Below are positions 4,135 to 16,177 of a stretch of DNA of 64,000 nt, piece after piece. Source of the DNA: Rubrobacter indicoceani (GTDB lineage Bacteria > Actinomycetota > Rubrobacteria > Rubrobacterales > Rubrobacteraceae); assembly GCF_003568865.1 (NCBI RefSeq), contig NZ_CP031115.1, positions 310,001-374,000 of the forward strand. Direction: 5' to 3'. A model generated the notes under the pieces. It was not told the origin of the DNA. It searched no databases and was given only the letters and a program-made list of their open reading frames with translations. A program made the position numbers and the translations under genes. How positions within the stretch are numbered: the stretch's first letter is position 1; the number at the start of each line of letters is the position of its first letter.

Positions 4135-6099
4135 CTACCCCTGAAGCTGTGAGCTGCGGGCCACGTTCGGGAAGCCGCCCGTTATCGCAACGACGGAGGA
4201 CTTCGGCGGCGTCCCCGCACCGCCGGGCCACGTGCTGGTCGGCTCGTTGCGGTTCTCGGAGGTCTCGCCGGGGTGCTGTATGGCGAGAAAGAGCGTCTGC
4301 CCGTCGGGGGTCATGGCCGGACCGGTAAGCTCGGCGGCTATGGGCGCGCTTGCAAACTGGTAGACCTCCGAACCCCTGACTCCGCCGTCGAGGTCCGTCG
4401 GGAGCATGAACGCGCCGTTGTTGCGGAAGCTTGTGTAGATGCCCTCGTTCATCCCGCTCGAAGACATGTCGGTGACAACCCAGAGGTTGTTCTGGTTGTC
4501 GAACATAAGGTTGTCGGGGGAGGCGAAGCCGGTCTGCGGGCCGCCGGCGGCAAAGACCTCGAAGGTGAAAGCCTCGGCGGTCGGGTCGTCGCCCTCCTCG
4601 GTCATGCGGATGATCTGACCGTAGAAGTTCCCGTGCGACTCGTTGTTGGTGAGGGCGCAGTAGACCTGCCCGGTCTCGGGGTGGACCTCGATGTCCTCGC
4701 AGCGGTCCATCGGGGTTCCGAACGTCGGGCCGTCCTCCTCCTGCGGAACGGCGGCGGCCTCGTAGACGCGGGTCAGGAGGTCGCCCTGATCCTGAAAACC
4801 GTTCTCCCCGAAGACCGGGTTGGCCTCGAAGTCCATCGCGTTCCACCTGCCCTGCGAGAAGTCCGCAACGTAGAGCATCCCGTCCGTGAGCAGGTCCATG
4901 TTGGCCTGGCGGTTGCCCGCTTCGTAGGTTCCGCTGGAGACGAACTTGTAGATGCACTGGTCTATCTCGTCGTGGCCGGTGTAGACAACGACGCGGTTGT
5001 CCGGCGCGATGGTGATGGCGGCGTTCTCGTGACGCAGCCTGCCGAGCCACGAGTGCTTGCGGGGTTTGGACTCCGGATCAAAGGGGTCCACCTCAAAAAC
5101 CCAGCCGTAGTGCTCGGGGGGCTGGGTGTTCTCCGGGTCGTCAAGCCAGCGGTAGCTCTCCTCGATCGGGTAGTCTTCCGGTTCGGCGGTCGTGCCGGAC
5201 TTCGGCTCGCCGTCCTCGCCGGTGAACTGGCCGTAGTAGTCTTGGAAGTTCTCCTCACAGGAGAGAATGGTGTTCCAGGGGGTGAGGCCGCCGCCGCAGT
5301 TGGCGAGCGAGCCTATCATCTCCGTTGCCCCCATCACCGCGTCCGACCCGCGCGCCGGGCCGGTTACGTCCATCGGGGTCGTGGCGTCTATGCGGCGGTT
5401 CATCGGGTCGTCCGCCACAAAAGACCATGTATCGCCCTCGCGCCTCACCCTTACAACCGCCCCGCCGACGCCGGATTTCTCTTTGTCTATCTGCTCCTTG
5501 GTCTTCTCCGTCTCGGCGTTGCCGTACTCTCCGTCGTACTCGGAGAAGAAAAGCGGGTTTATGTACTCGTGGTTGACCCAGAGCAGCCCGTCGGTTGAGT
5601 TGTCTCCGCCGTCGAGCGCGTCTATCGGGAGATAGGCGAGGTAATCGTTGTGGTCCCCGAAGTTCATCCCGCCGCCCATATCGTCTTCGGACGAGAGGAT
5701 AACGTTGTATTTGAAGCCTTCGGGTACGATGAGATCGTCAGCGTCGGTCGGTTCGATGGCCGTGAAAAACGGACGGGTCCCCGAGGGAGCCGAGCCGCCC
5801 TCGGAACCCTGGGCGTTCGTCTCCTCGTCTGCCTCCTGCGCGACGGCGTGCTTCGGGAACAACCCCGAACTCCCGGCGGCCAGAGCGGCCGAACCCGTCC
5901 CGAGAAAGGTCAGGAAGCTGCGGCGGCTCATGCCTTCGCGCTGCTGGGAGAGGTCCCGGGCCCGTTTCCCGGCCTTGGTCCTGAGGATGCTCGGCCCGGC
6001 CGGAGCGGGAACTCCGGGCCCTTCCCCACCGTCGTTTTCTCTACCGGAAGGCCCTTCCGCGTAGACGCTCGTATCTTCTGTATCTCTGTCTTTCCTCAA
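4135..6099 (-). CDS. phoX: PhoX-family alkaline phosphatase (DUF839), Tat-exported
   Basis: Extracytoplasmic phosphomonoesterase family that uses Ca and Fe. A charged N-terminal extension of ~55 residues precedes a Tat motif, SRRSFLTFLG, and a hydrophobic stretch ending ...PKHAVAQ, so the mature protein starts near residue 90. The body has PhoX signatures such as GLLWVNHEYINP, NCGGGLTPWNTILSCEENF and EHYGWVFEVDPFDP. The 654-residue length fits the family. The TTG start has AGGAGG 8 nt upstream. The promoter region carries an 11-bp-phased PHO-box-like array and a TATTAT -10, so phosphate-starvation control is inferred. It is divergent from the small RTX-like gene. A second PhoX paralogue lies 10 kb away. 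Confidence 0.93.
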   Translation of the reverse strand: MRKDRDTEDTSVYAEGPSGRENDGGEGPGVPAPAGPSILRTKAGKRARDLSQQREGMSRRSFLTFLGTGSAALAAGSSGLFPKHAVAQEADEETNAQGSEGGSAPSGTRPFFTAIEPTDADDLIVPEGFKYNVILSSEDDMGGGMNFGDHNDYLAYLPIDALDGGDNSTDGLLWVNHEYINPLFFSEYDGEYGNAETEKTKEQIDKEKSGVGGAVVRVRREGDTWSFVADDPMNRRIDATTPMDVTGPARGSDAVMGATEMIGSLANCGGGLTPWNTILSCEENFQDYYGQFTGEDGEPKSGTTAEPEDYPIEESYRWLDDPENTQPPEHYGWVFEVDPFDPESKPRKHSWLGRLRHENAAITIAPDNRVVVYTGHDEIDQCIYKFVSSGTYEAGNRQANMDLLTDGMLYVADFSQGRWNAMDFEANPVFGENGFQDQGDLLTRVYEAAAVPQEEDGPTFGTPMDRCEDIEVHPETGQVYCALTNNESHGNFYGQIIRMTEEGDDPTAEAFTFEVFAAGGPQTGFASPDNLMFDNQNNLWVVTDMSSSGMNEGIYTSFRNNGAFMLPTDLDGGVRGSEVYQFASAPIAAELTGPAMTPDGQTLFLAIQHPGETSENRNEPTSTWPGGAGTPPKSSVVAITGGFPNVARSSQLQG

Positions 6100-6142: not shown

Positions 6143-6148
6143 ATAATA
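6143..6148 (-). promoter_or_regulatory. Probable -10 box of phoX
   Basis: TATTAT on the minus strand, about 20 nt past a fourth, degenerate unit (CTGAAAC) of the PHO-like array. It gives a leader of ~35 nt that contains the AGGAGG ribosome site. Confidence 0.4.
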
Positions 6149-6175
6149 AAGATGAGACGCCCCCTGTGGTTTCAG

Positions 6176-6208
6176 GCGCGTTAAACGAGCTTTAAATTGC
6201 TCTGAAAC
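6176..6208 (-). promoter_or_regulatory. PHO-box-like 11-bp direct repeats upstream of phoX
   Basis: Read on the minus strand the three units are GTTTCAG-agca, ATTTAAA-gctc and GTTTAAC-gcgc: a conserved 7-mer plus 4 variable bases every 11 bp. This is the unit geometry of PhoP sites in Streptomyces and Bacillus, although the 7-mer differs from the Streptomyces GTTCACC. The same 7-mers recur before the DUF2079 gene. Regulator identity is inferred, not shown. Confidence 0.6.
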
Positions 6209-6237: not shown

Positions 6238-6304
6238 GTGCAACGAACATTTAAGCCGCTTTTCGCGGTGTTTTAACAACGGGCTCGAAGACCGCGCCTA
6301 GAAT
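6238..6304 (+). promoter_or_regulatory. PHO-like array and -10 box for the RTX-like gene
   Basis: On the plus strand GTGCAAC, ATTTAAG, TTTTCGC and TTTTAAC occur every 11 bp (6238-6277). Exactly 21 nt later comes TAGAAT (6299-6304), and 8 nt after that the ATG. The DUF2079 promoter has identical spacings (21 and 8 nt). The transcript would be leaderless or nearly so. Confidence 0.5.
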
Positions 6305-6312
6305 CCATCCTC

Positions 6313-6723
6313 ATGCAGGCACCAGCATCTTCCGGCGTTCCGGCTCGAACACCGCGGGCCGGCCTTGGGTTGCAGGCCTCGCTGCTCGGTCTCCTGCTGA
6401 TGGGGGTCTCCGTGGTCTGGGGCGGCTCCGGCGCGCTTTTATCTCCAGGCGTCCTGCCGCTGTCAGACTCTGAGGGGACACGGGGAAACGACGTACTCCG
6501 GGCCGGTTCCGAGGGCGGTCTTCTCCCCGGCTTCGCGGGCGACGATGCAATGTACGGCGGACCGGGGGGCGATGTGATGATCGGCGGTTACGGAGACGAC
6601 TTCTTCGAGGTCGCGGGCGGGGGCCCGGACCACGTTTCCTGCGGGCCCGGCACCGACCTCGTAAACGCCGACGGGTCCGACGTGGTCTCCGCTGCCTGTG
6701 AGACCGTCTACCTCTCGCCGTAA
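6313..6723 (+). CDS. Small secreted RTX-like calcium-binding protein
   Basis: 136 residues. An N-terminal hydrophobic segment (LGLQASLLGLLLMGVSVVW, residues ~19-37) looks like a signal peptide or anchor. The rest contains glycine/aspartate nonapeptide-like repeats of the haemolysin type: GNDVLRAGSEGG, AGDDAMYGGPGGDVMIGG, YGDDFFEVAGGGPDHVSCG, ending in NADGSDVVSAACETV. Two cysteines (in VSCG and AACE) may form a disulfide. The start is fixed by a TAGAAT -10 ending 8 nt before the ATG. It is divergent from phoX and shares its regulatory region; since PhoX enzymes bind calcium, a linked role is possible but speculative. Confidence 0.75.
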   Translation: MQAPASSGVPARTPRAGLGLQASLLGLLLMGVSVVWGGSGALLSPGVLPLSDSEGTRGNDVLRAGSEGGLLPGFAGDDAMYGGPGGDVMIGGYGDDFFEVAGGGPDHVSCGPGTDLVNADGSDVVSAACETVYLSP

Positions 6724-6830: not shown

Positions 6831-7172
6831 GTGAAGGTCATGCTCGTAGTCCCCGACGGCCGCGGGCCGGACGCCTTGCGCGCCTCCGGCGGATCGTTCT
6901 CCGGGGCGTTCGGGCGCGATGTCATCCCCGGCCTTGAGGTCTTTACGGGCGGGAGATTCCCCTCTATCCGGATGGTTCCGGAGTCCATACTGGACCGCCG
7001 GGCACCGCACAACTAAGGCTTCGTGCGGGATAACGGCTTCGTCCTGACCGCCTACAGCGGGGGCGAGCTCTCCGGCCGGGGCGAAAAAGAAAAGTCTCGG
7101 ATCAGACCGGCCTCGCACTCGGAGGCGTGGTCCGCGCACGACGAGAAGTTTACTTTGTGGAGCTTTGGTTAA
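6831..7172 (+). pseudogene. Possible broken small gene interrupted by TAA
   Basis: A GTG start opens a 61-codon frame (MKVMLVVPDGRGPDALRA... ending RRAPHN) closed by TAA at 7014-7016. The same frame then stays open for another 51 codons (GFVRDNGFVLTAYSGGELSG... KFTLWSFG) to TAA at 7170-7172. Both halves show the window's GC-rich third positions, suggesting one ~113-residue gene with a nonsense mutation. I recognise no family. The 3' end touches the PHO-like array of the next gene. It could also be chance open frame. Confidence 0.3.
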
Positions 7173-7210
7173 CCTATGTTTAAATCCGGTTTCAGAGCTG
7201 TTTAACCAGA
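7167..7210 (+). promoter_or_regulatory. Four-unit PHO-box-like direct repeat array
   Basis: Four consecutive 11-bp units: GGTTAAC-ctat, GTTTAAA-tccg, GTTTCAG-agct, GTTTAAC-caga. The 10-mer GTTTCAGAGC is shared with the phoX array, in the same orientation relative to its gene. The array ends 21 nt (counting from the last 7-mer) before a TACCAT -10 box, in the place of a -35 element, as expected for an activator site. Confidence 0.65.
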
Positions 7211-7227
7211 ATGCCCCTGGAGGTTGT

Positions 7228-7233
7228 TACCAT
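7228..7233 (+). promoter_or_regulatory. -10 box of the DUF2079 gene (leaderless)
   Basis: TACCAT (TANNNT) ends 8 nt before ATG 7242, so transcription would begin at or within 1-2 nt of the start codon. No Shine-Dalgarno precedes that ATG at a usable distance. Confidence 0.5.
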
Positions 7234-7241
7234 TCAGCGTT

Positions 7242-8843
7242 ATGTCCGAACACCGAGCCTTGTTCAAAAAGGTTAGAGAGGTAAGCCTCAAGGCCGACAG
7301 GTTCGCCGGAGACGGCGCTTCCGGCGGCTCGGTGCCTTCGGCGGCCTCGGCAAAGCAATCGTGGTTCGGACCCGGAGCCTTTGTCTGGTGCTGCGCCGTG
7401 CTGTACGGCGCGGTGTTCAGCCTGCTCACCATCCGGCGCCACGAGACGTATTCCTCGGCGCGCTTCGACCTGGCCAACATGGATCAGGCCATCTGGAACT
7501 CGGCCAACGGTAGGATACTGGAGGTTACCGGGGAGGCCGGGGAGAACCTGACCCGGCTCGTAAACCACGCGGACTTCCTGCTTTTGGCCTACGTTCCGCT
7601 TTACTGGCTCTGGGAGAGTCCCTACTGGCTGCTCGTCTCGCAGTCGCTGATCGTGGGCCTCGGGGCGGTGCCGCTGTACTGGCTTGCCCGGCGTTTCATC
7701 GGACGGGCGTGGCCGGCGGCGATGATCTCGGCGGCCTATCTCTTCAATCCCGGGCTTCAGTCGGCGAACACCTTCGACTTCCACGCGCAGACGCTCGCTC
7801 CGACGTTCCTGCTCTTCGCCTTCCACTACCTGCTTGCGAGGCGTCTCCTGCCGTTCGTGGGGTTTGCGGTTCTGGCCTCGCTCTGCAAGGAGGAGATCTC
7901 GCTCATGGTCGCGATGATGGGCGCGTACGTCTTTGTCTTTGAGCGGCGGTTCGTTCTTGGGGCCTCCGTTCTGGCGGCGGGGTTCGGATACTTCGCGCTT
8001 GTGATGGGGGTTATCATCCCGTCCTTCAACGACGGCACGACAAGCGAGCTGGTCGAGGGGCGCTACGGCGAGGTCGGCGGGTCGATGGGGGGGATGGCCC
8101 GAACGCTTCTAACCGACCCGGCCGCCATTCTGGGACACGCTCTCTCGGGGGGGAAGCCGGGGTATATCCTTGATCTCCTCGGCGCGGGGGTGTTTATCTG
8201 CCTGCTCGCGCCGGGTCTGCTCCTTATCGCCTTGCCGGAGCTTGCGATAAACCTGCTCAGCAACCGGGCGCAGATGTCGAACGCCAACTATCATTACTCG
8301 GCTACGATCTGGCCCTTCGTCTACCTCGCGACCGCCGCCGGGATAGCGAAGATCACCGGCCTCGCCGGGAGGCTCTTCTCGGGTCGCGCCTGGCGGGACG
8401 ACCTGCTGAAGGTTCTGCCCGGGGTCCTTGCGTTCTGGGTGTTGCTGTTCGGGGTCTACCTCGACCTGCTCAACGGACCCGTCCCCGTCTCACCCAACTA
8501 CGTGCAGAACCCGGTCGTTATGCGGGGGCTGCCGGACGAGTACATCGCAAACCTCGACGAAGCCGTAGCCGCGATACCCGACGATCCGGGCGTGAGCGTA
8601 ACGGCGAGCAACTGGATCGCCCCGCACCTCGCCCACCGCGAGACGCTCTACCTCTTCCCGACGCTGGAAGGTTCGGGCGGCCCGGCGGACTACGTCGTCG
8701 TTGACCTCTACCGGGCCAGCTACTTTACCGGGGTCGACCGCCAGCGCGGACAGCGCGTCCTTGAAAGGCTGATAGAAGACCCCCGGTACCGGGCGATATA
8801 CATCGCGCCCAACGTAACCGTCTTCGAGCGAACCCCCGGCTGA
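7242..8843 (+). CDS. DUF2079 polytopic membrane protein
   Basis: 533 residues with about ten hydrophobic helices, beginning with FVWCCAVLYGAVFSLLTI. The early motif RFDLANMDQAIWNSANGRIL and the later NYHYSATIWPFVYLA are characteristic of DUF2079, a GT-C-like predicted membrane family of unknown activity. ATG 7242 is preferred over an in-frame TTG at 7224 because a -10 box lies 8 nt before it. A four-unit PHO-like array precedes the promoter, so the gene is probably induced with phoX. That would suggest a role in envelope glycan or polymer remodelling during phosphate limitation, which is an inference. The next gene is convergent. Confidence 0.85.
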   Translation: MSEHRALFKKVREVSLKADRFAGDGASGGSVPSAASAKQSWFGPGAFVWCCAVLYGAVFSLLTIRRHETYSSARFDLANMDQAIWNSANGRILEVTGEAGENLTRLVNHADFLLLAYVPLYWLWESPYWLLVSQSLIVGLGAVPLYWLARRFIGRAWPAAMISAAYLFNPGLQSANTFDFHAQTLAPTFLLFAFHYLLARRLLPFVGFAVLASLCKEEISLMVAMMGAYVFVFERRFVLGASVLAAGFGYFALVMGVIIPSFNDGTTSELVEGRYGEVGGSMGGMARTLLTDPAAILGHALSGGKPGYILDLLGAGVFICLLAPGLLLIALPELAINLLSNRAQMSNANYHYSATIWPFVYLATAAGIAKITGLAGRLFSGRAWRDDLLKVLPGVLAFWVLLFGVYLDLLNGPVPVSPNYVQNPVVMRGLPDEYIANLDEAVAAIPDDPGVSVTASNWIAPHLAHRETLYLFPTLEGSGGPADYVVVDLYRASYFTGVDRQRGQRVLERLIEDPRYRAIYIAPNVTVFERTPG

Positions 8844-16038: not shown

Positions 16039-16083
16039 GAAACCTCCTCTGAACCTCGGCTTTCTCTTAACGCGGCAGAAGGT

Positions 16084-16123
16084 TAGCAACGGAGGTTCAA
16101 TGTATGGTTGCAGGCTCGTAAAC
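16084..16123 (-). promoter_or_regulatory. Weak PHO-like 11-bp array upstream of the second PhoX gene
   Basis: On the minus strand the phased 7-mers are GTTTACG, TGCAACC, ATTGAAC and GTTGCTA. Two of the four match GTTTAAC at five of seven positions; the others are poor. The distance to a -10 box does not reproduce the 21-nt spacing seen elsewhere, so support is mainly by analogy. Confidence 0.3.
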
Positions 16124-16130
16124 TTGTTGT

Positions 16131-16177
16131 AAAAAAGAATGGTTCCTGTTATCGAGAGAAGCTCTCGATGACAGGAA
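16131..16177 (-). terminator. Intrinsic terminator of the S9 peptidase gene
   Basis: Two 16-nt arms (16143-16158 and 16162-16177) pair fully except for one G-T wobble around a 3-nt loop. On the minus strand a T6 run follows 6 nt after the stem. It separates the peptidase gene from the PhoX promoter just downstream. Confidence 0.75.

Follow-up and report, generated by a model that had tools for sequence, protein, structure and literature searches.

A four-unit Pho-type operator very probably places the gene of a GT-C-like DUF2079 membrane protein in the phosphate-starvation response of Rubrobacter

Introduction

In Escherichia coli, the pho box is composed of CTGTCAT units, classically two, with about 10 nt between the last unit and the -10 element. 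It is textbook knowledge that PHO boxes are built from 11-nt units, the sequence of which is species-specific (PMC4415409). At the pstS gene of Streptomyces lividans, two units are located at -141 to -113 in the numbering of that study (PMC2605767). In other Gram-positive bacteria, phosphate-rich polymers are swapped for phosphate-free ones under Pho control (PMC4415409). In the literature searched, of which a part was covered, no description of a Pho-box consensus of the Rubrobacteraceae was found, and, judged by titles and abstracts, the publications naming both "Rubrobacter" and "Pho regulon" do not appear to include a promoter study. Here, a repeat upstream of a DUF2079 gene is compared with these systems. 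It is located in a stretch of 64,000 nucleotides of Rubrobacter indicoceani, which is called the window in the following.

Results

A four-unit repeat precedes the DUF2079 gene

The DUF2079 locus has the following features:

7167-7206, plus strand: putative Pho operator of DUF2079, units GGTTAAC (7167-7173), GTTTAAA (7178-7184), GTTTCAG (7189-7195) and GTTTAAC (7200-7206); identified by matrix rank and clade conservation
7228-7233, plus strand: -10 element TACCAT of DUF2079; the 21-nt spacing is the same in five orthologues and at pstS
7242-8843, plus strand: DUF2079 membrane protein with a predicted GT-C fold, 533 aa, predicted leaderless; PF09852 with E = 6e-65, AlphaFold prediction, PDB matches

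A PHO box contains at least two direct repeat units of 11 nt, with seven conserved and four variable bases. At the DUF2079 gene four such units were found, at steps of exactly 11 bp (starts 7167, 7178, 7189 and 7200). The last unit is separated from the -10 element by 21 nt (7207-7227), and 8 nt (7234-7241) lie between TACCAT and the ATG (7242-7244). The units, the steps and both distances had been given in the initial annotation and proved to be correct to the base. The promoter has a -10 element and no evident -35 element, and no Shine-Dalgarno sequence was seen at the usual distance before the ATG at 7242.

The region 7100-7241 was shuffled 5,000 times with preservation of dinucleotides and scored with a pstS/phoX matrix. 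The best four-unit score of the shuffled sequences was 22.8 compared to 31.4 observed, and for the units plus the -10 element it was 15.4 compared to 40.3.

phoX and a small RTX-like gene have putative operators of their own

The initial annotation had pointed to a 10-mer common to the upstream regions of DUF2079 and phoX, GTTTCAGAGC, in the same orientation relative to the gene, and this was verified. In the window it is present at two sites only, 7189-7198 (plus strand) and 6199-6208 (minus strand), each pointing at its own gene, and two or more copies were obtained in 2 of 100 shuffles. The region of the second site contains the following features:

4135-6099, minus strand: phoX alkaline phosphatase; PF05787 with E = 6e-113
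6143-6148, minus strand: -10 element TATTAT of phoX, 20 nt after the fourth unit
6169-6208, minus strand: putative Pho operator of phoX, units GTTTCAG (6208-6202), ATTTAAA (6197-6191), GTTTAAC (6186-6180) and CTGAAAC (6175-6169); covariance model R1 (see below), E = 2e-5 genome-wide
6238-6277, plus strand: second putative Pho operator (RTX gene), units GTGCAAC (6238), ATTTAAG (6249), TTTTCGC (6260) and TTTTAAC (6271); rank 2 in the window
6299-6304, plus strand: -10 element TAGAAT of the RTX gene, 21 nt after the last unit and 8 nt before the ATG at 6313
6313-6723, plus strand: small RTX-like gene, 136 aa, predicted leaderless; HemolysinCabind with E = 1e-4, just below the Pfam cut-off

The fourth unit of the phoX box, CTGAAAC, had been overlooked in the initial annotation, as had the RTX gene between phoX and DUF2079, which has a four-unit box of its own and the same spacing as DUF2079 (21 nt, 6-nt -10 element, 8 nt, ATG). 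The RTX protein has a single N-terminal hydrophobic segment and RTX-like Ca-binding repeats. Divergent phoX/RTX gene pairs with a box on each side were found in about ten genomes.

In eight relatives (L052, L054, L055, L063, L072, L176, L179 and L182) an ATG 8-10 nt past the Pho -10 element opens an ORF of 13-27 codons, the stop codon of which overlaps the RTX start as ATGA or TTGA. The overlap is conserved and the peptide is not, which suggests that a leaderless upstream ORF is translationally coupled to the RTX gene in these relatives. In the window, the ATG after the RTX -10 element is in frame with the RTX gene itself.

The module is linked to phosphate genes across the Rubrobacteraceae

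The pst operon of the same genome (pstS, two permeases, pstB, phoU) was located through TIGR00972. The pstS promoter has the sequence GTTTAAC-GTAG-ATTTAGC-TTCG-AGTTTAC-ATAA-CAGCAAC, followed by 21 nt and TATCAT. The DUF2079 gene shares its box with two known phosphate genes of the same organism, pstS and phoX, and the position relative to the core promoter is fixed, with 20-21 nt to the -10 element at the pstS, phoX, RTX and DUF2079 genes. The unit differs from the Streptomyces GTTCACC, as had been proposed, but the single 7-mer GTTTAAC of the initial annotation had to be replaced by a position-specific consensus, GTTTAAC / ATTTARC / AGTTTAC / GTGMAAC.

Within the family, the module of four units at 11-bp steps, 20-21 nt and a TANNAT-like -10 element was found at pstS and at most phoX genes. 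It was present in all 23 pstS-type upstream regions that were scored (34.7-44.2 with a matrix for which five sites of this genome and of G004 were used), and the best shuffle in any of them reached 19.2. An independent matrix was generated from an ungapped alignment (A1) of 26 pstS/phoX sites, all of them from other genomes. Among 127,868 window positions, it ranked the DUF2079 site first, the RTX site second and the phoX site third.

The same 26 sites were used to train the covariance model R1, which was run over 40 family genomes and yielded matches in 39. Besides pstS and phoX, the annotated matches in relatives included sites at phoD (twice) and at genes for a phytase-like protein, a DUF47/PhoU-like protein, an ABC permease and a sulfatase-type hydrolase. 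The DUF2079 site of the window was absent from the genome-wide local covariance search with R1 even at E = 5, because its third and fourth units depart from the pstS type, and the RTX site of the window was likewise missed; the DUF2079 site of G012 was listed. The ungapped matrix is a better test than the local search with R1. The distribution of the predicted motif sites is the signature of a Pho regulon. The assignment of DUF2079 to the phosphate-starvation regulon in the initial annotation was supported by the rank with the matrix from other genomes, by the sharing with pstS and phoX, and by conservation.

Well-formed boxes are rare in the genome

The genome (3.08 Mb, three contigs) was examined by pattern and model searches and in a few stretches. 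A three-unit pattern with up to three mismatches yielded five matches in 3.08 Mb, compared to one for the reversed pattern used as a control; three of the five were located at phoX and DUF2079. A looser two-unit search resulted in 30 matches, compared to 5 for the control. After inspection, about six loci with well-formed boxes were retained, i.e., pstS, phoX, the RTX gene (window 6313), DUF2079, a glycerate kinase-transporter pair (C1:135.7 kb) and a glycosyltransferase operon (C1:2800.7 kb). The initial annotation had proposed a genome-wide scan, in which a motif spread over the genome and unlinked to phosphate genes would have spoken against it; the motif turned out to be rare, with pstS and phoX among the few loci. 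Two-unit matches in coding ends (e.g., C1:1415841) are probably due to chance, as are the matches at C1:2669651 and 2588297.

The glycosyltransferase operon (C1:2800657; L013, L195-L202) encodes a GT28-like protein, two GT4 proteins, an ABC exporter and an APH-type kinase. It has a three-unit Pho box, and the units exceeded the shuffles in six of eight orthologues tested, including G000.

Several further sites were observed. At C1:135692-135730 (L012), four strong units, which match well on both strands, lie between an isochorismatase-like gene and the glycerate kinase-SLC13-type transporter pair, which is a possible new Pho target. Pho-like sites were found before other GT-C-like membrane proteins in G007 (L182:200-1911), where the protein is TMEM260-like and the gene begins 7 nt from the -10 element, and in G015 (L186:12392-14615), where a UDP-sulfoquinovose synthase gene is nearby; the box before the latter gene is weak and was not counted as support. 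In the window, 16080-16146 (minus strand) contains the partial units TTTTTAC, AGTTTAC and CTGCAAC (R1, E = 0.037 genome-wide); this site lies between two plus-strand genes and points into the end of the upstream gene. G034 (L174, L190) had 17 R1 matches, several of them before very short ORFs with a common downstream sequence (CTTTAAC tcaggg), and they perhaps represent a repeated element that carries a Pho promoter.

The putative operator is conserved in one DUF2079 clade

A set of 14 DUF2079 genes of the family was compared, six of which form one clade (support 94/100). The box was found in five of the six (sum scores 24.9-40.3, shuffles at most 4.0) and in none of the eight genes outside the clade, including a paralogue of the same genome (C1:2224609). 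The G001 orthologue was devoid of a box. In this closest orthologue (L030 upstream of DUF2079) the box, the -10 element and the ATG are lost, with ACG at the aligned position, and it is a natural loss of the predicted Pho control.

In leaderless genes, an in-frame start codon follows the -10 element after about 6-9 nt and a Shine-Dalgarno sequence is missing; this arrangement was found in the window, G003 and G004. These three are identical in having the box, 21 nt, the -10 element (TACCAT, TAATAT and TAACAT, respectively), 8 nt and an in-frame ATG. In G012 a GTG follows 8 nt after the -10 element, but the DUF2079 frame opens at 19 nt, and in G006 a 13-codon ORF starts 6 nt after the -10 element; in both, the start codon nearest to the -10 element is out of frame with DUF2079. 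Thus, the predicted Pho operator is general in the clade, and the spacing of a strictly leaderless gene is found in three of the five. The leaderless promoter of the initial annotation thus holds with regard to the spacing, which is exact in the window and common to three species, but its strict form is restricted to three of five box-bearing orthologues.

DUF2079 is predicted to have a GT-C fold

NCBIfam has no name for DUF2079, and no mention was found in the literature searched, which was partially covered. An AlphaFold prediction from 16 sequences had a pLDDT of 84 and a pTM of 0.84. All 18 PDB matches at E <= 1e-3 (Foldseek) were GT-C enzymes or complexes containing them, including the oligosaccharyltransferase (OST) STT3, ALG9, DPY19, AftA, ArnT and PglB, with modest TM-scores to known GT-C enzymes of 0.38-0.50 by query length. 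GT-C enzymes keep a catalytic acid after the first main membrane helix. In DUF2079, the loop that follows this helix contains the invariant residues D76 and D81; they would correspond to the conserved acidic residues in the first outer loop of GT-C enzymes, and the predicted structure has the GT-C membrane fold. The designation "GT-C-like" of the initial annotation is in agreement with this prediction.

A RegX3-like protein is the likely regulator

The response regulator encoded at C1:2527980-2528645 is closest to RegX3 (PDB 2oqr, E = 1.6e-50). Its gene adjoins a gene for a PhoR/PnpS-type kinase (pair C1:2527980-2529439). No Pho box was found near these candidate phoPR genes. The motif is likely to belong to this RegX3/PhoP-like protein, and the assignment is no firmer than that because at least nine OmpR-type regulators are encoded in the genome.

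Discussion

We consider it highly probable that the repeat is a PhoP/RegX3-type Pho operator, which places a putative GT-C enzyme gene in the phosphate-starvation response. The motif, its conservation, the operator common to pst, phoX and phoD, the promoter geometry and the GT-C fold are based on sequence; the identity of the regulator, activation, the leaderless transcript, catalysis and purpose are what we infer in the following model. Low phosphate would act via a kinase to yield a phosphorylated regulator of the OmpR/PhoB family, most likely the RegX3/PhoP-like protein. Arranged head-to-tail, it would occupy the four 11-bp units that directly precede the -35 region and recruit RNA polymerase to the promoter, which contains a -10 element and no evident -35 element. 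Transcription would begin at the DUF2079 ATG or no more than about 2 nt away from it, and would yield a leaderless mRNA. The DUF2079 gene would very probably be switched on when phosphate runs out, and the extra enzyme, given its modelled fold, would take a sugar from a polyprenyl-phosphate donor and attach it to an acceptor in the envelope. This could perhaps serve to replace phosphate-rich envelope components, i.e., a phosphate-sparing envelope glycosylation.

The probability that the repeat arose by chance in an AT-rich promoter is negligible. With 49% AT the region is indeed AT-rich for this genome, but its score was reached by none of the 5,000 dinucleotide shuffles, and together with the conservation of the box in five species this already refutes chance. 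It is quite improbable that the motif belongs to another OmpR-family regulator, e.g., one for envelope stress, which would then control pst, phoX and DUF2079. Throughout the family, the motif accompanies pstS, phoX, phoD and other phosphate genes, and its unit length and register agree with those of PhoP-type boxes (PMC4415409, PMC6754071), even if the RegX3-like protein is only one candidate among at least nine OmpR-type regulators and the candidate phoPR genes are without a nearby box.

A real Pho box could also drive a DUF2079 transcript that is not leaderless, with transcription beginning further upstream or translation at a later start codon. The different arrangements in G006 and G012 would be in accordance with this; still, it is unlikely, given that three species and the RTX gene have an in-frame ATG 8 nt from the -10 element, and that a Shine-Dalgarno sequence is lacking at the usual distance upstream of 7242. 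A far more serious contender, with a probability not much below one half, is that the Pho operator is real but DUF2079 has a general role, e.g., in S-layer or protein glycosylation, that is unrelated to phosphate sparing. DUF2079 paralogues without a box exist in the same genomes, and GT-C enzymes serve many acceptors, whereas the Pho-linked glycosyltransferase operon and the Pho sites before other GT-C proteins (G007, G015) suggest a common theme.

Because Pho units precede the glycosyltransferase operon, a change of envelope glycans or glycolipids is suggested. It is tempting to speculate, although we regard it as somewhat less likely than not, that the Rubrobacteraceae have a starvation programme in which DUF2079, the glycosyltransferase/ABC-export operon and the RTX surface protein would remodel the envelope with phosphate-free glycoconjugates, DUF2079 and RTX being transcribed from leaderless Pho promoters. 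If true, this would be the first function for a DUF2079 protein. With the Pho operator reading, an uncharacterised family of membrane proteins is assigned to a named regulon, and low phosphate is thus a growth condition for testing the enzymatic function of DUF2079. In addition, a Pho-box consensus and a promoter geometry are defined for a deep-branching actinobacterial family. New are, as predicted from sequence, the Rubrobacteraceae consensus, its fixed geometry of four units and 20-21 nt, its use in leaderless promoters, and the membership of DUF2079 and the RTX gene in the regulon.

With regard to the protein, the predicted fold and the position of the invariant Asp loop match those of the GT-C glycosyltransferases ArnT, AftA, ALG9, STT3/PglB and DPY19, with an identity of 9-16%, which is too low for naming a donor or an acceptor. 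With regard to the operator, the E. coli PhoB pho box likewise consists of 11-bp direct repeats that replace the function of a -35 element, but the distance of 20-21 nt between unit and -10 element in the Rubrobacteraceae is one helical turn longer. The PhoP PHO boxes of Streptomyces (GTTCACC) are alike in having seven conserved and four variable bases, in their head-to-tail arrangement and in preceding pst and phosphatase genes (PMC4415409; PMC7866108); the Rubrobacteraceae box differs in its GTTTAAC-like unit, the number of four units and the fixed distance to the -10 element. The PolR site of Microlunatus, GTTCACnnnnnGTTCaC, is also actinobacterial, has an 11-bp step and is found at phosphate genes, but it has two units of another sequence and a suggested response to oxygen (PMC6754071).
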